Part shown: positions 46,923 to 56,059 of the stretch, piece after piece | Position numbering within the stretch: position 1 is the first letter of the stretch | How the letters are laid out: every line of letters starts with the position of its first letter | DNA from: Enterocloster asparagiformis | Lineage (GTDB): Bacteria > Bacillota > Clostridia > Lachnospirales > Lachnospiraceae | NCBI GenBank assembly: GCA_018380885.1 | Contig: JAGZSY010000022.1 | Location: forward strand, 14,856 to 78,855 | Direction: 5' to 3' | DNA: 64,000 nt | The notes under the pieces: model-generated | Told to the model about the DNA's origin: nothing | Database searches by the model: none | The model's input: the letters and a program-made list of their open reading frames with translations, nothing else | Translations under genes and position numbers: made by a program

Positions 46923-47948
46923 CTACTGAATCCACGCCCCGTCGCTCCCCACGTAATACCCGTCCGGCGTGGTGGTGTCGTGCAGCATCTGCCCGCTCTC
47001 CACACAGTAATACCACTTCCCGTTCCAGTCGATCCAGCCGGTCACCATGTACCCGTTTCCGTCGAAGAAATACCAGTAATTGTCAATATACTGCCAGTTA
47101 TTGACCGTATAGCTGCGATCCGCGTTACAGTACCACCAGCCCACGCCGTCCTTCAGCCACGCGCCGCTTGTGGAACCGCCGGGGCCGGACGAGCTGCCGT
47201 TCACTGAGGAGCCCGACTTTGAATTGCCTCGGATTTCCGAAGCCTCGGAGGAGGTCACATACCACTCATCAGACGTCTCCCAGCTCCCCTTGTTGGAGGA
47301 ATTGTACACGCCCCGCACCCGGAACGTGTAGGTGCCGCTCTGGGTGAAATAGCCGGAGAAGTCGTAGGAGGTATCGGATGTTGACAGTATGGAGGAAGCC
47401 GTGCTGTCGCCCCGGTAAAGGCGCACCTCGTAGCGCTTGGCGTCCTCGCCGTCGTTCCAGTAGGCGGTGCCGTCGGACTCATCCCACTCCAGGCCGTCCA
47501 CGTCCAGCTCGTAGTCGCTGTCGTCGTCGTCATCGTCGTCGTCCAGAGCCTCCAGCGTGATATAGACCCGGAAGGTGTCGGAGCTGGAGCGGCTCACGGA
47601 CGTCACCGTGCCGTCGTCACCGCTGAGGCTCACATCGCTCTTGGTCAGGCCGCTGGTTGGGAAGTAGTAATCCTCCGCCGCGGTCAGCGTGACCTTCAGC
47701 TTCGGCTTATCCCCGTCTTCCCACTCGTCCCTGGGCTCATTGGTGACCTCCACATCCTCCACATCGTAACGGCCGGACCTGGAAGTGACATCCACATCAC
47801 TGCCGCTGTCCCCGGCTACGATCTCGGAGTCAATGCGCAGGGAAATACTGGAAATCTTATTCCCGGTCGCCGCCGAGGCTGAGAACGGCAGCATAGCGGC
47901 CAGCGCAGCGGTCAGCAGGCAGGCGGCGGCATTTTTTAGAATTCTCAT
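46923..47948 (-). CDS. Secreted wall-binding protein with Asp run
   Basis: 341 residues. A signal peptide ends at SASAA (about 27). Residues about 30-135 are a beta-rich unknown domain. An eight-Asp run (about 138-145) joins a fibronectin type III-like module (about 155-230, Trp/Tyr-spaced strands). A Ser/Gly linker follows, and four choline-binding-like wall repeats close the protein (GWWYCN, YWYFFDGNGYMVTGW, KWYYCVESGQML, GYYVGSDGAWIQ). Likely bound to the cell wall and surface-exposed. A GC-rich hairpin (46853-46880) follows and may end transcription. Confidence 0.88.
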   Translation of the reverse strand: MRILKNAAACLLTAALAAMLPFSASAATGNKISSISLRIDSEIVAGDSGSDVDVTSRSGRYDVEDVEVTNEPRDEWEDGDKPKLKVTLTAAEDYYFPTSGLTKSDVSLSGDDGTVTSVSRSSSDTFRVYITLEALDDDDDDDDSDYELDVDGLEWDESDGTAYWNDGEDAKRYEVRLYRGDSTASSILSTSDTSYDFSGYFTQSGTYTFRVRGVYNSSNKGSWETSDEWYVTSSEASEIRGNSKSGSSVNGSSSGPGGSTSGAWLKDGVGWWYCNADRSYTVNNWQYIDNYWYFFDGNGYMVTGWIDWNGKWYYCVESGQMLHDTTTPDGYYVGSDGAWIQ

Positions 47949-48144: not shown

Positions 48145-48816
48145 TCACAGCAGACATTTCAAACGCTCTATCTCCACATCGCGCATCTCTTTTTTCTCAA
48201 TGCTGAAAAATCCCTCTTTCTCCATCAGCTTCAGCTCCTGGTTCAGAGAGGCGCGGCTCACGTGCAGCATGTTGGCCAGGACCGTCTGGGAGCAGGGCAT
48301 GCGGACCGCCTCGTTGGGCGTCAGGTTGTTCATGCCCACGATCCAGTAGGCGATGCGCTCCCTGATCGTCTGGTAATTAAGGCAGTTGAGGTACATCTGG
48401 TTTTTCAGCCCCCGCTGGGAGATGTACAGCAGCAGCGCGTACATCAGCTGCTGGTCCTTGGAGAGCATCTCCTCCAGCACGCAGACCGGCACCCACACCA
48501 CCGTGGATTTCTTCTCCGCGTACAGCGAGTAGGTGTAGTAGCGCTCCCCGGAAAAGTAGAGAAATTCCGGGAAAATGTCCTTGGACTCAAAATAGGCGTG
48601 GCACAGCTCCGTCCCGTCCAGGGTGTTGTCCACCGCTTTTAAGATTCCGTCCAGCACAATGCCGAAATGGGTGATTTTCGTCCCCTGGGGATGGAGGCAC
48701 TGGGACCCCTGGTACGTCCTTTTCGTAAAATAAGACTGGTACTGTACCTCCCTTCTGCACAGATCCGCGAATGGAATCCTGCAGGAATTTCCAGTAATTG
48801 TAAAATATTCGTGCAT
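48145..48816 (-). CDS. Crp/Fnr-family regulator
   Basis: 223 residues. An N-terminal cyclic-nucleotide-binding-like beta barrel (about 20-140) precedes a winged helix whose recognition region is TVLANMLHVSRASLNQELKLME. The barrel lacks the Arg/Ser phosphate-binding pocket of cAMP receptors and the N-terminal Cys cluster of FNR; single cysteines occur at about 12 and 20. The effector is therefore unknown. GGAGG precedes ATG 48816. It lies downstream of the arylsulfotransferase operon and is its best regulator candidate. Confidence 0.88.
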   Translation of the reverse strand: MHEYFTITGNSCRIPFADLCRREVQYQSYFTKRTYQGSQCLHPQGTKITHFGIVLDGILKAVDNTLDGTELCHAYFESKDIFPEFLYFSGERYYTYSLYAEKKSTVVWVPVCVLEEMLSKDQQLMYALLLYISQRGLKNQMYLNCLNYQTIRERIAYWIVGMNNLTPNEAVRMPCSQTVLANMLHVSRASLNQELKLMEKEGFFSIEKKEMRDVEIERLKCLL

Positions 48817-48842
48817 GCAAAAACCTCCCTGAACGTGCCACA

Positions 48843-48871
48843 AAGAGGGGCTGTCAAAAACAGCTCCTCTT
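48843..48871 (-). terminator. Hairpin between sulfotransferase and crp genes
   Basis: Twelve-base arms (48843-48854 and 48860-48871) with one G-U and a five-base loop, before the crp ribosome site. It may end or attenuate read-through from the operon. Confidence 0.6.
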
Positions 48872-48901
48872 CGCCTATTTTCTCTCTTCTGATCTCGATC
48901 C

Positions 48902-50710
48902 CTATGCCAGCGGCTTATCCAGAATATCGCACAGATCGTCGTAATCCTTTTCTCCGTTGAACCGCTGAACCTCCTGGCCGTTCTTGAAGATCGCAACCAC
49001 CGGGATCCCTCCGATATGGCAGGTGTCCACCAGATCCTGGTTGGCGTCCACGTCCACGTAGCGGATCTCGTATTGGCCCTCGTACTCTTCCTTCAGCGCT
49101 TCCTCCAGAACCGGGTGCAGCGCCTTGCAGTGGGTGCAGCGCTCCGCTCCGAAGAGCACCAGAACAGGTTTATCCTTCACCTTCAGGACCTCGTCGTTCC
49201 AGGTGGAGATGGTCACCGGCTTGAAGAAGGAGGTGTCCACCTGGAATACCTTCTCCCGCTTGGTCACATCCTCTTCCTCGTCCGTGGCCACGCAGAGGGC
49301 TACATCTTGATAATACGGCAAAGTTCCGGGAATATCAATGACTTTTTTCGCCCCGAAGGCGCCCGCTCCGGGCACGCGGTAGGTCACGTTGTCGATGGGT
49401 TCAATGGCAACCTCCACAGGCGTGGGCTCCTGGGGCACATAGCTGTAGGGATAACGGTACGCCCGGTAAATCATATTGTTCTTGGGGCCCTTCTCGTTGT
49501 GGGTGTAGTACGGGGAAATCCACTCCCAGACGATCTCGTGATCCGGCGTCACCTCGATCAGCCGTCCGTCGGAGCCCTCCGTGATCATGGTGTTGCCGTT
49601 GGGCAGGCGCTGGGCGCTGCTGACATAGGGGCTGTAGAACTTGCTGGCGTCCGTGGGGATCGCGTGTCCCAGCTCCTTGGGCGTCACCTTCCAGATAATC
49701 TCCAGGGTGATAGGATCAAATTCCAGCACGCGGCTGTAATCCCTGTGGGCGTTCTTTGCGCCGATGGGAGCCGCCGGGTTGGGAACCCCGTAGCCGCCCC
49801 AGCCACCGTTGTCGAACACCAGCAGGTTCCCCTCTCCCGGAAGTCCCTTGGGGATCATATGGAAATGGTGCTGGCCGATGATCCAGCCCAGCTTTTTTAA
49901 CTCCGGCGTGGCGTTAAAATCCGGTCCGATGCGCCATACGATCTTGCCTGTTTCCTTGTCCAGGATCGCCAGGATATTGGCCTCGCGGCAGTCGAAAATA
50001 ATGTTGTCGGGCTTGAAGCGCATATCGCCCTGGTCGTACCATTTGTTCGGCCCCAGATAGCTCATGCAGTTCACGTGCAGGTAGTCGCCCACGCCTCCGT
50101 CGGAGGAACGCATGTTGGGATCGCGGAAAAGCACGTTCTTGGCGGCCTCGTCGAAGCCCAACTCGTCAAAGTGGTCGCTGATCGACCATTTCCAGAGGAT
50201 ATTACCCTCCCAGTCCACCTCGATCATGGCGTCGTCCAGCAGCTTCTTGTCGGAAATTTTGGGATTGCGGATGGTCTGGTGCACCAGGATCAGAGTGTTG
50301 CCCTCCAGGGGTTTGGCCTCCATGCCGGGCACGTAGTAGCCCACCGGGTTGCCCTCCCTCTGATAGTCGTGGTGCTGACGGGCCATCCAGCGGTGGTCTC
50401 TGCCCGGGTCGTCGATATTTTCAAAATGGTCGAATTCCCACACGATATTGCCGTCGTAGTCGATCTCGATCAGGTTTACGCCGTCCTGCATGCCGTAGTC
50501 GGGATGGCGGTAGCCGGAAAGGCCCATCACATACCCGCCGGGCAGAAGCTTCGGCGGCATTGCGTGCATATTCCAGCGGCGGATCTCGTTGCCGTTCATG
50601 TCGAACAGCAGCACGCCGTCGTTGATCAGCGGAACGATGGTGTATCCGTTCCAGCATTTCTCAGGGTTGTAAACCGTAACTCCGTGTGGAAAAACAAGTG
50701 GTTGTCCCAT
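48902..50710 (-). CDS. Arylsulfate sulfotransferase fused to thioredoxin
   Basis: 602 residues. About 1-470 form a six-bladed ASST propeller (NDGVLLFDMNGNEIRRW, HHDYQREG, QHHFHMIP, repeated IVWEW/ILWKW blade ends). ASST moves sulfate between phenols without PAPS, using a catalytic His. About 500-602 form a thioredoxin domain with active site ERCTHCKALHP (CxxC near 523-526) and cis-Pro GGIPVV. There is no signal peptide, so unlike E. coli AssT it should be cytoplasmic. GGAGG precedes the start. It follows a thioredoxin-reductase-like gene, the likely electron source for the CxxC. Confidence 0.87.
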   Translation of the reverse strand: MGQPLVFPHGVTVYNPEKCWNGYTIVPLINDGVLLFDMNGNEIRRWNMHAMPPKLLPGGYVMGLSGYRHPDYGMQDGVNLIEIDYDGNIVWEFDHFENIDDPGRDHRWMARQHHDYQREGNPVGYYVPGMEAKPLEGNTLILVHQTIRNPKISDKKLLDDAMIEVDWEGNILWKWSISDHFDELGFDEAAKNVLFRDPNMRSSDGGVGDYLHVNCMSYLGPNKWYDQGDMRFKPDNIIFDCREANILAILDKETGKIVWRIGPDFNATPELKKLGWIIGQHHFHMIPKGLPGEGNLLVFDNGGWGGYGVPNPAAPIGAKNAHRDYSRVLEFDPITLEIIWKVTPKELGHAIPTDASKFYSPYVSSAQRLPNGNTMITEGSDGRLIEVTPDHEIVWEWISPYYTHNEKGPKNNMIYRAYRYPYSYVPQEPTPVEVAIEPIDNVTYRVPGAGAFGAKKVIDIPGTLPYYQDVALCVATDEEEDVTKREKVFQVDTSFFKPVTISTWNDEVLKVKDKPVLVLFGAERCTHCKALHPVLEEALKEEYEGQYEIRYVDVDANQDLVDTCHIGGIPVVAIFKNGQEVQRFNGEKDYDDLCDILDKPLA

Positions 50711-50773
50711 AATTCATATCCTCCTGAACTAAATTTATATGTTAAATTAAAATCATTTTGATTTTCGCATCCT

Positions 50774-51952
50774 CTAACAGTCTTTTGCCGCCTTCACCTC
50801 AATCAGCTGCCCGTCGCGGTAAAACGCCGCGGACACGGTTTCCTCCACCTTGAGATTCTGGTACAGCAGGTTCTGGCGGGTGATGTCCTGGCGGTAAATT
50901 TTCCACTCCCCGGCCAGCTTCTTCTCCAGCTCGCCCACAGCCTCAATCTCCTCGTTGCTGTAGGGGTTGTAGAACAGGAAGGCCACGTTTCCCGATTCCG
51001 GGCTCAAAATATCCTGAATCTGGTTCAGCTCCTTCACGTACCGCTCCGACGCCACGGCCGCCACCGCTCCGTCCGCCGCCGAGGTGATCACCTGGCGCAG
51101 GAAGGTCTGGGTGCAGTCGCCCACCGCGTACAGTCCGGGGACATTTGTCTCCATCTTCTCGTTGACCTTGATGTAGCCGCTGTGGTCGCACTCCACCATG
51201 TCCCGGACCAGCTCGGTCTGAGGCACCATACCCACGAAGAAGAACAGCCCGTCGGCCTTCACCTCTCTTGTCTCCCCGGTGTCCACATTCTTTAACACCA
51301 GCGACTCCACGTGATCCCCGCCCTTAATCTCCTGGACGGTGGTGCTCCAGACAAAATCAATCCTGGGATTCTTGTAGGCGTGCTCGGCTGCCACCTCGTT
51401 GCAGTCCAGATGGCCCTCCTCGTGGAGCACGATGATGGTCACCTTGGAGGCAAAGCCGGTGAGGTAATCGGATTCCTCCACCGCCTGATCCCCTGCGCCC
51501 AGGACGTAAATCTCCTTGCCCTTGAAAAACTCCGCGTCGCAGGTTGCGCAGTAGGCCACTCCGTGGCCGGTGAACTCCTGCTCGCCCTTGATCCCCAGCT
51601 CTCTGGGCCGGGTGCCCAGGTCCAGAATCACGCTGCGGGCTTTAAAATCGCCTCTGCGCTTGGTGCCCACCACAAACAGGTCGCCCTCCTTGCGTATTTC
51701 CGTTACCGTGGTGCGCTTTAACTCCACCGTGGAGTGGCTGGCCGCGTGCTCCCGGAATTTCTCCATCAGGTGCTGGCCGCTGTCCACAATGGTGCCAGGG
51801 TAGTTGCGAATCTCGTAGGTGTCGTTGATACGCCCTCCGTAGCTTCCCTTCTCCAAAAGCAGTGTCCGCCGCTCGGACCTTCCGGCGTAGATGGCTGCCG
51901 CCAGGCCGGCCGGGCCGCCTCCGACGATGATCAGATCATAAATTGAATCCAT
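50774..51952 (-). CDS. Thioredoxin-reductase-like flavoprotein with degenerate thioredoxin tail
   Basis: 392 residues. The first 310 are a low-molecular-weight thioredoxin reductase: FAD motif GGGPAGLAAAIYAG, redox CATCD (near 138), NAD(P) motif VLGAGDQAVEES and FAD-closing AVGDCTQTF. Residues about 315-392 are extra. Their pattern (VAFLFYNPYSNEE and then ETVSAAFYRDGQLIEV) resembles a thioredoxin fold in which the CxxC is lost. NAD(P)H is the presumed donor and the thioredoxin-fused sulfotransferase 63 bases downstream the presumed acceptor. Confidence 0.88.
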   Translation of the reverse strand: MDSIYDLIIVGGGPAGLAAAIYAGRSERRTLLLEKGSYGGRINDTYEIRNYPGTIVDSGQHLMEKFREHAASHSTVELKRTTVTEIRKEGDLFVVGTKRRGDFKARSVILDLGTRPRELGIKGEQEFTGHGVAYCATCDAEFFKGKEIYVLGAGDQAVEESDYLTGFASKVTIIVLHEEGHLDCNEVAAEHAYKNPRIDFVWSTTVQEIKGGDHVESLVLKNVDTGETREVKADGLFFFVGMVPQTELVRDMVECDHSGYIKVNEKMETNVPGLYAVGDCTQTFLRQVITSAADGAVAAVASERYVKELNQIQDILSPESGNVAFLFYNPYSNEEIEAVGELEKKLAGEWKIYRQDITRQNLLYQNLKVEETVSAAFYRDGQLIEVKAAKDC

Positions 51953-51982
51953 AATTCCATCTCCTATCTCTATAAAAAATGC

Positions 51983-53443
51983 TTAAACATCATTGGTTGC
52001 CGAAATTTTGTTCAGCTTTTTACTGGCTCCCGGCTCCCGGCCGATCCCGGTCGCCACCCAGAACACGCAGATTCCCGTGAGAATCAGGCAGTAGAAGGAG
52101 CAGCAGAAAATCGCAAAGGGCGTCACGTGGGGGAGATAGCTGTGGTTCTGCACCATCTCGTTGATGATGGTCACGCTTCCCATGACAAAGGCGCTGTTGA
52201 TGGGAAGGATGGAGCTGACGTTGGTGGCGTTGGCAGTGAGCAGAATACTTCTGCGCTCCGGCGAAATGCCGCTCTCCTGGCCGATGCGGTCCGCCATATC
52301 CCCGAACATCAGGATGGACGGGAGCACGCAGCCCGCCAGCAGAATGTTGATGACAATGGTTCCGCCCATCAGGACCACCTCCGCGCCCCGCTTGGTCTTT
52401 GAAAACCTCCGCGACAGAATCCAGTTGCAGCACGCCTCCAGCATACCGCCGTCCACAGCCACCGCGATCAGGCCGTAGAGCAGGATCGTGGACACCGTCA
52501 CATCCAGCATCCCGTAGATGCCCTCGAACACGATTCCCTTAAGCCCCGACGTGGCGTAGTCGATGGACACGATATCCGAAAACGTGAACAGTCCCCCGGC
52601 CAGGCCCACGAAGAGGCCGGCTACAATGGCAAAGGAAAGTCCCACAAACAAATTTCCCGTCTTAAAGCAGATCGCCAAAAGCACAGCGATGGGGATCAGC
52701 ATCAGCAGGCCCTGAGCCTGTGAAAACGTCTCAATCTGCGCCATATCCCCCATGGTCCCGCCCTTTGCGCCGAACAGGAAGAAAATCACCATGGCCGCGC
52801 CCCCCGCGATCAGGATGTAGGGCGTCCTCTGGCGCAGGGCGGCCAGAAGATTCGCGGGCTTTCCCGTGGCCTTGTCGTGCTGGATCATCACCGTGGTGTT
52901 GATCACCTGGGAGCTAGGGGACAGCGCGTCCCCGAAGAAAATGCCGCTGATCAGCGCGCCGGTCAGCATAGCCGGGCTGGCGCCCAAGAGAATCCCCGGC
53001 GGGTAAAAAATGGGAAGCACCGCGAACAGGGCCGCGATGGGCGCCCCCGCTCCCATGGAGATCACCGCGGAAGCCAGGAAGCTGAACACCACGAAGGCGC
53101 TTCCCCTGATTCCCAGGTTTAAGCTCAGCCAGATAAAGCCGTTGCCGATCTTTCCGGTGTTCATCATTTTTGAAAAAATACCGATGATCAGGAAAATGAA
53201 AATCAACCGGGAATTTCCGTACTGGGCCAGTCCGCGGACCACGCTGTCCCAATATTTCCCCTTATCCTTACAGACAAAAAATCCCGCCAGCAGGGAGATC
53301 ACCGCCGCGAAGATCAGTCCCTTCATTGAATAATAGTGAAACCCTACCGAAAATATACCGCCCAGCAGTATGTACAGCCCGATGGGCATAATGGCAAACG
53401 CCGGATGTCCCCAAAAACTCAGTTTCGGTTCCTTGGTTTTCAT
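51983..53443 (-). CDS. NhaC-family Na+/H+ antiporter
   Basis: 486 residues with about eleven to twelve helices. NhaC-type motifs are seen: GIFFGDALSPSSQVINTT and the second half TILLYGLIAVAVDGGML. The ATG at 53443 is eight bases after GAGGTGGAG; the GTG at 53452 is less likely. NhaC members exchange Na+ for H+, and some exchange organic acids (malate/lactate, MleN). In this operon a substrate-specific role, such as moving a sulfated or phenolic anion, is possible (inference). First gene of the operon behind the Fnr-like palindrome. Confidence 0.88.
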   Translation of the reverse strand: MKTKEPKLSFWGHPAFAIMPIGLYILLGGIFSVGFHYYSMKGLIFAAVISLLAGFFVCKDKGKYWDSVVRGLAQYGNSRLIFIFLIIGIFSKMMNTGKIGNGFIWLSLNLGIRGSAFVVFSFLASAVISMGAGAPIAALFAVLPIFYPPGILLGASPAMLTGALISGIFFGDALSPSSQVINTTVMIQHDKATGKPANLLAALRQRTPYILIAGGAAMVIFFLFGAKGGTMGDMAQIETFSQAQGLLMLIPIAVLLAICFKTGNLFVGLSFAIVAGLFVGLAGGLFTFSDIVSIDYATSGLKGIVFEGIYGMLDVTVSTILLYGLIAVAVDGGMLEACCNWILSRRFSKTKRGAEVVLMGGTIVINILLAGCVLPSILMFGDMADRIGQESGISPERRSILLTANATNVSSILPINSAFVMGSVTIINEMVQNHSYLPHVTPFAIFCCSFYCLILTGICVFWVATGIGREPGASKKLNKISATNDV

Positions 53444-53475
53444 TTTCTCCACCTCGTTTCCTATTGCTAGTTAAA

Positions 53476-53519
53476 ATTATAACAGGCCAGGAAAATCATG
53501 TGTGTCGGACGCCCGACAC
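53476..53519 (-). promoter_or_regulatory. Activator-type promoter with Crp/Fnr palindrome
   Basis: Minus strand TATAAT at 53476-53481 with no good -35. In its place lies the perfect palindrome GTGTCGG-ACGC-CCGACAC (53502-53519). The predicted start is near 53469, so the palindrome centre is at -41.5, the class II activator position. The five-four-five core (GTCGG-N4-CCGAC) has FNR-box geometry. Confidence 0.7.
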
Positions 53520-53695: not shown

Positions 53696-54478
53696 TCAAT
53701 AATCCAATAATCTTCTGTAAATTTTCAAGTCCTCTTCCGTAAAAACATTAAAGATAACCTGCCGCAAAGACCTGTTCCCGCGCAAAAACGCTGTTACCGT
53801 TTCCACGGCGATTTTTGCCGCTCTGTCCCCCGGGAAATGGAATACCCCCGTTGAAATGCAGCAGAAGGCGATGGACCTCACCCCATTATCAGCGGCTAAC
53901 CGCAGGCAGGCGCTGTAGCAGGAGGCCAGCAGCTCGCAGTCCTCGTCCCGAAGCCTTCCGGATACGGCCGGTCCGACCGTGTGCAGGATATATTTGCAGG
54001 GCAGGTTATACCCCGGGGTAATTTTCGCCGTCCCCACCGGCTCCCCGCAACCCTGGGCCGTCATTATCTCGTTGCATTTGATCCTAAGCTGAACGCCGGA
54101 AAACGTATGGATCGCGTTGTCTATGCAGGAATGGCACGGTTGAAAGCAGCCCAGCAGCGCGCTGTTTGCCGCGTTTACGATGGCATCGCAGCGCAGCGTG
54201 GTAATATCGCCCTGCCAGAGGAAAATCCGCCCGTCGGCCTTTGACGCTTTGAGGGCGCCGGCATCCGTTATGCCCCGCGCCCTTGCCAGTTCCGACAGAT
54301 AGGCGTCCTGCACCTGCAAAAACTCCGGCGAGGCAGGAAGAGGCGGGCGCAGATTCATCAGGGAGCGCAAAAGCCTTCTCTGCCCCTGTTCATCCCCCGG
54401 TATTTCCAGCCCCCGGTACCGCGGCTGTTCCTCTATCAGCGCGCGGATGAGAAAAATCCGCTGTTGGTCATGGGTCAT
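53696..54478 (-). CDS. Zinc macrodomain protein-ADP-ribose hydrolase
   Basis: 260 residues. An N-terminal helical extension (about 1-80) precedes a macrodomain with GDITTLRCDAIVNAANSALLG. The Zn-macro insert is GCFQPCHSCIDNAIH, and CCISTGVFHFP closes the ADP-ribose pocket. Zn-macros linked to SirTM remove the ADP-ribose that the sirtuin adds (established in Staphylococcus and Streptococcus). The start overlaps the sirtuin stop by four bases (ATGA), so it is coupled. Last gene of the operon. Confidence 0.93.
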   Translation of the reverse strand: MTHDQQRIFLIRALIEEQPRYRGLEIPGDEQGQRRLLRSLMNLRPPLPASPEFLQVQDAYLSELARARGITDAGALKASKADGRIFLWQGDITTLRCDAIVNAANSALLGCFQPCHSCIDNAIHTFSGVQLRIKCNEIMTAQGCGEPVGTAKITPGYNLPCKYILHTVGPAVSGRLRDEDCELLASCYSACLRLAADNGVRSIAFCCISTGVFHFPGDRAAKIAVETVTAFLRGNRSLRQVIFNVFTEEDLKIYRRLLDY

Positions 54479-55323
54479 GCCTTTCCCTCCTCTCCCCGCA
54501 GCTCCTCCAGCACCGGGCCGATATCCCCGTCCACGCACAGGGAGCGTTCCCGTATCTCAGGGGGAGAAAACGCCTGCCCCCGGTTCACACAGATATAGAA
54601 CGCCCTGCTCCACTGGAGGGTCATCTGCCAGAAGGGGTATTTGATGATGCCCGGGGTGTTCATCCCCACGCCCAGCTCCAGGAAAACCACCCGCCTTTGC
54701 CGGTTTTCGCGCAAAAAGTTCTCATAGCGCTGAGCCGCCTGATCCCAGGCCTCGTCCTCCACAAAATTGCCGTCGCAGCGCAAATTCACCTCCATGTCGC
54801 CGCCGCAGACCGGGCATCTCGGCACCAGCTCCGGAGGTATACGGCAATCCTGCTGGCAGGCTATCATCCTTCGGACCTGCTCCTCGTTGTCGTACAGCTT
54901 TTTGTGACAGGCCCCGGCGCACTGGAACTTCCCGTAATCCCCCTGTGTGGCAAATATGCGCTGGTTGTCGAATCCGGCCAGCCAGAACTGATGGTCCACA
55001 TTGGTGGTCAGCACAAAATAGTTCCGGCTCTGCACCAGCTCATACAGATCCAGGTACGCCTTTCCCGCCGGCTGGTCGTAGCGGTTGCAGTAGATGTGGC
55101 GGCTCCAGTAGGCCCACTTTTCCTCCTGGGTTTGAAAGGGGTAAAAGCCGGCGGAGTACATGTCCCTCATGCCGTATTTGCGGATAAAATCCGGAAAATT
55201 CTGTTGAAACCGCAAGCCCTCGTAGGTCAATCCCGCGGCCGCGGAGAGGCCGGAACCGGCCCCGATCACCACCGCCTGGGCGCTTTTCAGCTTTTCCCGG
55301 ATTACGTCGATCTGAGCGCTCAT
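54475..55323 (-). CDS. Class M sirtuin (SirTM) ADP-ribosyltransferase
   Basis: 282 residues of the Sir2 fold. The NAD site is GAGSGLSAAAGLTYEG, the NID-like motif is TTNVDHQF, and a zinc ribbon has Cys in FQCAGACHK and CPVCGG. Where deacylating sirtuins have a catalytic His (HGS) this reads TQGDYG, a Gln, as in SirTM enzymes that ADP-ribosylate the lipoylated GcvH-L carrier. Here no GcvH-L or ligase is in the operon; a ferredoxin-like flavoprotein takes that place. Four-base overlaps join it to both neighbours. Confidence 0.92.
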   Translation of the reverse strand: MSAQIDVIREKLKSAQAVVIGAGSGLSAAAGLTYEGLRFQQNFPDFIRKYGMRDMYSAGFYPFQTQEEKWAYWSRHIYCNRYDQPAGKAYLDLYELVQSRNYFVLTTNVDHQFWLAGFDNQRIFATQGDYGKFQCAGACHKKLYDNEEQVRRMIACQQDCRIPPELVPRCPVCGGDMEVNLRCDGNFVEDEAWDQAAQRYENFLRENRQRRVVFLELGVGMNTPGIIKYPFWQMTLQWSRAFYICVNRGQAFSPPEIRERSLCVDGDIGPVLEELRGEEGKA

Positions 55324-55961
55324 TTTACCGCCCCCTTCGCCGCTCCCCTGGGACAGGCTTCCACGCAGTTGCCGCAGTGGAGACAGTGCTCCTCCCGGAT
55401 TTTAAAGGGCACCTCGCTGCCGTCGATGCAGCTCTGGGGACACTTTGCCAGGCAGAGACCGCAGCCGTCGCAGTCCTCCGTGATATAGTATCCCTCCTCC
55501 CGCGGTACCTCCTGTCCGCTGCCCTTGCCCAGACGGAAGCTGCGGCGGACTATGGGTTTGGCGGACAGATCGAAATACTCGCCCCGGCCCTCGCACAGGC
55601 AAAACACCTCCAGGGCCTGCCGGCTCTCCGGGGTGGGGTAAATCTCCTCCATGTAGGGATTTTCCGCAAACACCTGATCCAGCAGGCATTTTCCCATGTT
55701 CACCACCCGCCCGGCAACGGACACCGCCTTTTTCCTGAGGGAGCCCTCCCCGCCGGTCATGCCGCTGACCGCCACATAGCGCTGATTGATCAGCTGGCGG
55801 TAAAATGCTTTCCCCCTGGCCGTGATAAAGTACAGGCTGTCATCGTCCGCCAGCATAACGTCGATCACCCGGGCCGCCGGGTGCCCTTCCTCATCCACTG
55901 TGGCAAACACGGCGGAGTGAATCTCCTCTTTCAAAATACGCAGATAATCTTTTGTTTCCAT
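55320..55961 (-). CDS. Split-barrel flavin protein fused to 2[4Fe-4S] ferredoxin
   Basis: 213 residues. About 1-140 are a pyridoxamine-phosphate-oxidase-like FMN-binding split barrel (FATVDEEGHPAARVIDVML, LYFITARGKAFYRQL). About 155-213 hold two 4Fe-4S motifs, CDGCGLCLAKCPQ and CLHCGNCVEACPRG. It is probably a small electron-transfer flavoprotein. First gene of the operon with SirTM and macrodomain, overlapping the sirtuin start by four bases. Start 55961 follows GGAAAGGATGGAG. A divergent HxlR gene lies 168 bases away. Confidence 0.88.
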   Translation of the reverse strand: METKDYLRILKEEIHSAVFATVDEEGHPAARVIDVMLADDDSLYFITARGKAFYRQLINQRYVAVSGMTGGEGSLRKKAVSVAGRVVNMGKCLLDQVFAENPYMEEIYPTPESRQALEVFCLCEGRGEYFDLSAKPIVRRSFRLGKGSGQEVPREEGYYITEDCDGCGLCLAKCPQSCIDGSEVPFKIREEHCLHCGNCVEACPRGAAKGAVK

Positions 55962-56059
55962 AGCGCTCCATCCTTTCCTCATTTCATTGTACCGCAGCCG
56001 CCTTCCGGCGTAAACCGCCCGCTGGAAAACGGCGCGGCGCCAAACCAACGCCGCGGGGC

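Follow-up and report, generated by a model that had tools for sequence, protein, structure and literature searches.

The 64,000-nucleotide stretch of Enterocloster asparagiformis DNA analyzed here (the window) contains a cluster of four minus-strand genes encoding, in order, an NhaC-like membrane carrier, a thioredoxin reductase (TrxR), an arylsulfate sulfotransferase (ASST) fused to a thioredoxin (Trx) domain, and a Crp/Fnr-family regulator. With moderate confidence, the cluster can be read as an ATP-independent pathway of reductive desulfation: the sulfuryl group of an organosulfate would pass to His281 of the ASST domain, then to a thiol, and leave as sulfite, with TrxR recycling the thiols. 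The architecture of the locus, the conservation of catalytic residues, linkages that recur in other genomes, and an operator-like palindrome are the observations on which this is built. The features of the locus are:

51983..53452, minus strand: NhaC-like membrane carrier, 489 amino acids (PF03553); the true start may instead be the ATG at 53443.
50774..51952, minus strand: TrxR (PF07992, TIGR01292), with a CATC motif and, from about residue 306, a Trx-like C-terminal tail without CxxC.
48902..50710, minus strand: ASST-Trx fusion, 602 amino acids (PF05935 plus PF00085).
48145..48816, minus strand: Crp/Fnr-family regulator, 223 amino acids (PF00027 plus PF13545), preceded by the ribosome-binding site GGAGG.
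53503..53518, minus strand: putative palindromic operator TGTCGGGCGTCCGACA, at about -41.5 from the predicted start, with a TATAAT -10 element downstream.
48817..48901, minus strand: gap between the ASST-Trx and Crp/Fnr genes, holding (by eye) a GC-rich imperfect hairpin followed by T, a possible attenuator.

Order, strands and profile matches all agree with the one-strand, four-gene cluster described in an earlier reading of the DNA alone (the sequence-only reading), whose end coordinate, 53519, takes in the operator. The intergenic gaps are 30, 63, and 85 bases; the hairpin in the last looks similar by eye in three other loci (L019, L003, L017). The Crp/Fnr open reading frame as listed (48145-48996, TTG start) is over-extended and overlaps the fusion gene; the ATG at 48816, behind GGAGG, is the likely start, giving 223 amino acids. 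The fusion protein is 98% identical to its counterpart in [Clostridium] asparagiforme DSM 15981 (L019).

The sequence-only reading had proposed a neighborhood survey for conserved linkage, and had allowed that the fusion might be confined to this strain or the four genes not occur together elsewhere. Neither is the case. Of the 7997 candidates scored in a protein search with the fusion, 5789 matched at E<=0.001, and the top 120 of these were listed; among the relatives found, the fusion is spread over many lineages (Clostridia, lactic acid bacteria, Enterococcus, Vagococcus, Gordonibacter, Actinomycetaceae, Cetobacterium, Pasteurellaceae, and enterics), and unfused relatives are found in Desulfotomaculum-like bacteria, Deltaproteobacteria, Clostridium, and Paenibacillus. 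Genome loci were the best 80 of 550 relatives found, a sample that favors fusions, and the neighborhood counts given here cover 82 fetched loci. All four window genes occur together in 14 of the 82 (L003, L004, L008-L014, L017-L019, L022, L023), spanning two phyla: Bacillota, plus Gordonibacter. A quick tree built on the ASST part requires at least 3 changes for the fusion state and at least 17 for the five partner states. No relatives were found in the viral contigs searched, nor any match in the E. coli genomes searched at the DNA level. Searches of the PDB with the single fusion and with query A1 gave only Trx-type chains among the 60 matches listed, and no ASST came up when the ASST part was used by itself; a profile built from the unfused relatives gave weak matches to 9kf4 and 9kf6, without reaching E. 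coli AssT.

Both parts of the fusion score well over their model cut-offs (PF05935, 84 bits against 24.2; PF00085, 73.6 bits against 23.5). The reference for the active site was AssT of E. coli CFT073 (P0121; also EcAST), one of the ASSTs that are independent of 3'-phosphoadenosine 5'-phosphosulfate (PAPS) and have the PF05935 propeller. In a review (PMC13426309), roles are described for His252, His356, Asn358, Arg374, and His436, the last being the nucleophile, sulfated in turnover. A profile alignment made with hhalign (E 2.4e-5, probability 75.7%) places His356, Asn358, Arg374, and His436 at H212, N214, R242, and H281 of the window protein, and the multiple alignment agrees; His252 corresponds to H114 in the multiple alignment only. 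The catalytic histidines and arginine, whose possible absence had been raised as a doubt, are in place, and the five residues are kept in 101-104 of 104 full-length sequences: H114, H212, N214, and H281 in 101 each, R242 in every one. (The 104 come from 105 places and include two repeats, L153 = L059 and L190 = L010; the L181 ASST, 223 amino acids in a broken frame, was left out.) At the position of E. coli Thr501 there is a serine, S364, in 101 of 104, although the two alignments differ there by one residue. DhAST of Desulfitobacterium hafniense is named as belonging to the same ASST class; the alignment here covers EcAST.

The window protein differs from EcAST in several respects. No hydrophobic signal was seen at its N-terminus when read by eye, and the fusion is probably cytoplasmic, as had been suggested. 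The N-terminal beta-sandwich domain of the E. coli enzyme and its two-cysteine loop are missing in both alignments, and no DsbL or DsbI is found among the annotated window neighbors; the earlier generalization that known ASSTs need DsbL/DsbI finds no support here, the loop itself being absent. The window protein has an extra C-terminal tail bearing Cys473 and a dithiol system, either fused or encoded nearby; its gene is linked to those of carriers and, in some lineages, to sulfite genes. A lipoprotein-type ASST that has the classical histidines is also found in the E. asparagiforme genome (G008; L091:1480-3024). A further ASST of about 630 amino acids, with no obvious signal peptide by eye, is present in six loci of the Desulfosporosinus family (L234-L238, L240), directly adjacent to the studied ASST in five and several kilobases off in L240, and is usually accompanied by Trx, TrxR, and Crp; the two enzymes possibly form a sulfuryl relay.

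The C-terminal tail that follows the propeller is absent from all seven outside ASSTs compared. Of the 104 sequences, 99 have the cysteine of this tail, Cys473, as did all 86 in a previous alignment (that of L154 is out of register in a small alignment but nearby in sequence), and the fused Trx domain, with the motif C525-T-H-C528, comes after the tail. In L186-L188, H114, H212, N214, H281, and Cys473 are all lost together. These three loci (L186:8013-10690, L187:7072-9758, L188:8007-10693) have a fused ASST-Trx beside TrxR in which the catalytic residues are replaced, and this branch probably has a different chemistry. Selenocysteine at Cys473 was considered and dropped: the in-frame TGA or TAA codons in several unfused relatives (L172 left out) are gene ends.

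A dithiol reductant is a recurrent partner of the ASST. Trx is fused in 66 of the 104 sequences, in a sample tilted towards such fusions, and both CxxC cysteines are kept in all 66. TrxR was called in 25 of 82 loci. The window TrxR scores 164 bits with PF07992 and 337.3 bits with TIGR01292, just below the cut-off of 343.45, and its tail (50774-51037) ends in a single cysteine outside any CxxC; a Trx-like tail without CxxC is common to the cluster-linked reductases (hhalign probability 89.6% for the tails of 23 reductases against the fusion Trx domains), and perhaps serves as a docking part. Where the ASST is unfused, a stand-alone Trx can lie beside it, as in L154-L157 and L159 (5 of 12 unfused loci from two Clostridia samples), or Trx together with TrxR, as in 7 of 14 Desulfosporosinus-family loci (L234-L237, L240, L243, L247; loci with a called ASST, which L239 is not, and leaving out a spurious Trx call in L238). 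Fourteen of the 82 loci, many of them belonging to sulfate reducers and their kin, have at least one lipoyl, glutaredoxin, or dihydrolipoyl dehydrogenase (Lpd) gene. All 14 have a glutaredoxin-NrdG2-like protein with CxxC; GcvH-like proteins in these loci would carry the lipoyl attachment. The protein in question (L070:9982-10800 and the other c8 members) is a glutaredoxin fused to an NrdG2-like domain in which, by eye, no radical-SAM cysteine motif was seen. Among the 38 unfused sequences in the tree, 15 have a lipoyl-type gene, five a separate Trx, and 18 neither. The coupling to a thiol-redox system that had been proposed from the window alone is supported.

The genes around the ASST in some other lineages make sulfite its likely product. 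In Phytobacter (L015) and Kluyvera (L016), AsrA, AsrB-like, and AsrC-like genes lie directly downstream of ASST-Trx on the same strand; the AsrA of L016 scores 537 bits with TIGR02910, over cut-off. In two Clostridia, L154 (genome G170) and L185 (G428), an SsuABC-like importer and the ASST, joined in L154 by Trx and TrxR, lead a same-strand reductase operon. The operon continues with an O-acetylhomoserine sulfhydrylase relative (TIGR01326, 433 bits; cut-off 495), an AsrC-related siroheme reductase (TIGR02912, 154 bits, cut-off 324; NIR_SIR match), and TusA-like, Trx, ThiS-like, ThiF/MoeB, and JAMM-like proteins, the TusA, ThiS, and JAMM labels being given by eye. Neither G170 nor G428 has a match to PF01507 (the CysD/CysH family) or PF01747 (ATP sulfurylase) at E 1e-10, so that no sulfate activation or reduction of adenosine 5'-phosphosulfate (APS) or PAPS was found there, although both genomes may be incomplete. 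A third genome, G142, has the same reductase operon at a site away from its ASST, and likewise no PF01507 or PF01747 match. A YeiH-family gene separates ASST-Trx from the regulator in Enterococcus pallens (L009) and Vagococcus (L011); it scores over the cut-off of PF03601 but, at 190 bits, below that of TIGR00698 (232.6).

AsrA was also surveyed in 49 ASST-positive genomes, from 50 of the 80 loci (the genome of L036 was left out), and is over cut-off in 14. In the family of E. asparagiforme, the Lachnospiraceae, it is found in 7 of 11 ASST-positive genomes and in 43 of 239 negative ones (one-sided Fisher p = 0.0015, in a test that ignores kinship); two of the four positives that lack it (G170, G142) have another siroheme reductase. 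E. pallens (G033) has one NIR_SIR match, and the E. asparagiforme genome has two separate AsrABC sets (L269, L270; G008). These neighbors suggest a thiol acceptor and a sulfite product rather than the "redox-gated sulfate transfer" of the sequence-only reading.

The carrier fits import of an anion better than it fits the antiporter first suggested. Its match to PF03553 is weak (25.4 bits, cut-off 23), and it has no NCBIfam match at E 0.001. Over the 82 loci, the carrier position holds an NhaC-like protein of the window's kind in 19, a different NhaC type in four, an SLC13 protein in nine, a TRAP carrier in four, a TctA protein in three, and an SsuA-like protein in 31, the SsuA model scoring under its NCBIfam cut-off. 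Small-anion transport is what these families have in common, and because unrelated carriers (SsuABC-like, SLC13, TRAP, TctA) hold the same position elsewhere, an organic-anion importer is more likely than an antiporter. A dedicated transporter is retained, without the antiport; the variety of carriers speaks for uptake of an anionic substrate, without showing which one.

A dedicated regulator is supported both by the linked gene, whose product has a cyclic-nucleotide-binding domain and a Crp-type helix-turn-helix domain (PF00027 and PF13545, both over cut-off), and by the palindrome, TGTYGG-N4-CCRACA, upstream of the operon. Counted by hand, it is centered at -41.5, the usual class II Crp/Fnr activator position. 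A site with at most two mismatches is present in 17 of 21 non-duplicate loci with a linked Crp gene (11 of the 15 not used for deriving the motif) and in one of nine without it; these counts leave out L190, a repeat, and L012, which has too little upstream sequence. In the window, the same search would find 8.86 sites by chance; it found one, exact, at the operon. Across nine genomes, the operon has an exact operator in eight, and in four of these it is the sole exact site. The palindrome is probably bound by the Crp/Fnr protein that the cluster itself encodes. A wider Crp regulon was considered and not retained: 15 exact matches in the nine genomes, against 12 for the backwards pattern, amount to no genome-wide enrichment, and the seven non-operon matches inspected are mostly inside or beside unrelated genes. 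In G008, a second exact match to the operator precedes, by about 140 bp, a gene for an alcohol dehydrogenase, after which comes one for an aldehyde dehydrogenase (L264:6929-9472); this match may be chance.

What we infer from these observations concerns the substrate, the thiol acceptor, the sulfite product, the direction of transport, activation, and every chemical step. In the proposed pathway, the carrier would import an organic sulfate ester, most likely an aromatic one. The ASST domain would shift the sulfuryl group to His281, freeing an alcohol or phenol, and then to a thiol, for which Cys473 and the CTHC pair of the Trx domain (C525) are the likeliest candidates, to give S-sulfocysteine. 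A second thiol would attack this, releasing sulfite and leaving a disulfide for TrxR to reduce with NADPH; the sulfite would go to an AsrABC-type sulfite reductase, to assimilation, or to export. In sulfate reducers and their relatives, a lipoyl-GcvH/Lpd/glutaredoxin set would act as dithiol donor instead of Trx/TrxR, and the linked Crp/Fnr protein would activate the operon from the -41.5 site. Aryl sulfates are thought comparable to PAPS as sulfuryl donors, which makes reduction by Trx plausible. The extension to a whole family of ATP-independent, sulfite-releasing organosulfate reductases with interchangeable dithiol donors (fused Trx, Trx/TrxR, or lipoyl-GcvH/Lpd/glutaredoxin) is favored by a narrower margin, at little better than even chances.

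Parts of this scheme have parallels in known systems. In APS and PAPS reductases, a tail cysteine and Trx carry out the chemistry, and some have a fused Trx or glutaredoxin domain. The proposed logic would be that of CysH and plant APS reductase: sulfuryl to a tail cysteine, resolution by Trx, sulfite out. By sequence, the enzyme is an ASST, and not a member of that family: the fold is unrelated (no PF01507 match in the fusion) and, as proposed, the substrate would not be a nucleotide, no ATP would be spent on activation, and a histidine relay would precede the thiol. In the AsrABC pathway, sulfite is otherwise supplied from elsewhere; in Kluyvera and Phytobacter the adjoining ASST would generate it. 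Clostridial glycine and proline reductase operons carry their own Trx and TrxR, and they resemble the present cluster in having an operon-encoded Trx and reductase feed a substrate reductase, but none of the four cluster proteins is part of those enzymes.

Another possibility, though an unlikely one, is that sulfuryl transfer in the cytoplasm is of the ordinary, non-reductive kind, or that the ester is hydrolyzed to sulfate, with Trx and TrxR only keeping Cys473 or the protein reduced, or switching the enzyme according to its redox state, as in the "redox-gated" idea of the sequence-only reading. The classical active site is complete, the second ASST adjacent in five Desulfosporosinus-family loci could supply or accept sulfuryl groups, and known ASSTs move them between phenols (PMC13426309). 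A housekeeping keeper of thiols, however, hardly needs a dedicated TrxR, or replacement by lipoyl, Lpd, and glutaredoxin genes; in G170 and G428, which gave no match for CysD/CysH or ATP sulfurylase, released sulfate would be no feed for the reductase operon; and the AsrABC and yeiH linkages would go unexplained.

Less likely still is reductive cleavage to sulfite of some other oxyanion brought in by the varied carriers (a sulfonate, thiosulfonate, S-sulfocysteine, thiosulfate, or sulfamate). The sulfite context would be the same, the carrier families vary widely, and binding proteins of the SsuA/TauA type, to go by the model names, classically carry sulfonates; but ASST chemistry breaks S-O bonds, we know of no mechanism for C-S cleavage on this fold, and thiols alone can reduce S-sulfo compounds. 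That Trx is a folding partner or substrate-delivery domain, with the sulfite linkage a matter of general sulfur metabolism, is very improbable: E. coli does already pair ASST with disulfide exchange, its DsbL/DsbI genes lying beside assT, but here both Trx cysteines are invariant in the fusions, TrxR recurs (25/82 loci), and the E. coli-type cysteine loop is missing.

Besides the qualifications given above with the SsuA and YeiH scores, the Fisher test, and the completeness of G170 and G428, a number of observations weigh against the reductive pathway. L160 and L189 keep the catalytic histidines yet have no Cys473, so that this residue is unlikely to be essential everywhere. Half of the fused sequences (33 of 66, many of them enteric) have no TrxR called nearby; the 18 unfused sequences with neither type of partner are without a thiol partner (a count that includes L185, whose operon holds Trx); and among the 14 lipoyl-type loci, a GcvH-like protein was called in only nine and Lpd in seven. 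CysD/CysH-family genes are present in G009, G039, and G227, so the proposed route would not be their only one. No NIR_SIR match was found in 12 of 40 ASST-positive genomes (10 lactic acid bacteria and two Actinomycetaceae), from whose cells sulfite would have to exit, and of these 12 genomes, that of Vagococcus (G035) alone has a YeiH-family gene beside the cluster. The AsrABC adjacency is that of one lineage pair (2 of 82 loci), the reductase operon that of one sister pair (L154, L185), and in the close relative of the window the two AsrABC sets are about 390 and 450 kb away.

Several other window genes lie close to the cluster. Directly upstream (53696-55323), a macro-domain ADP-ribose hydrolase (NF003163 over cut-off) adjoins a weakly SIR2-like protein, and the two resemble a SirTM-macrodomain pair. 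The protein encoded at 55320-56048 joins a pyridoxamine-phosphate-oxidase-like domain to a 4Fe-4S ferredoxin domain. At 46923-47948 is a probably secreted protein that has choline-binding-type repeats as well as a D-rich, acidic stretch.

No description of a link between ASST, Trx, and sulfite was found in the open-licence literature, which is weak evidence of novelty; release of sulfite from organosulfates is a step not known for the ASST family. If the reductive pathway is correct, a thiol acceptor and a sulfite product would be a concrete, testable answer for what this branch of the ASSTs does. Sulfate reducers would have a cheap bypass of sulfate activation, and phenolic sulfates reaching the gut would be tied directly to bacterial sulfite and sulfide. 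More broadly, sulfate esters from hosts and plants would be a direct source of sulfite in gut bacteria, lactic acid bacteria, enterics, and sulfate reducers, which could turn it into sulfide, draw on it for sulfur, or use it to dispose of electrons. Such chemistry, if confirmed, would amount to a new type of enzyme activity.

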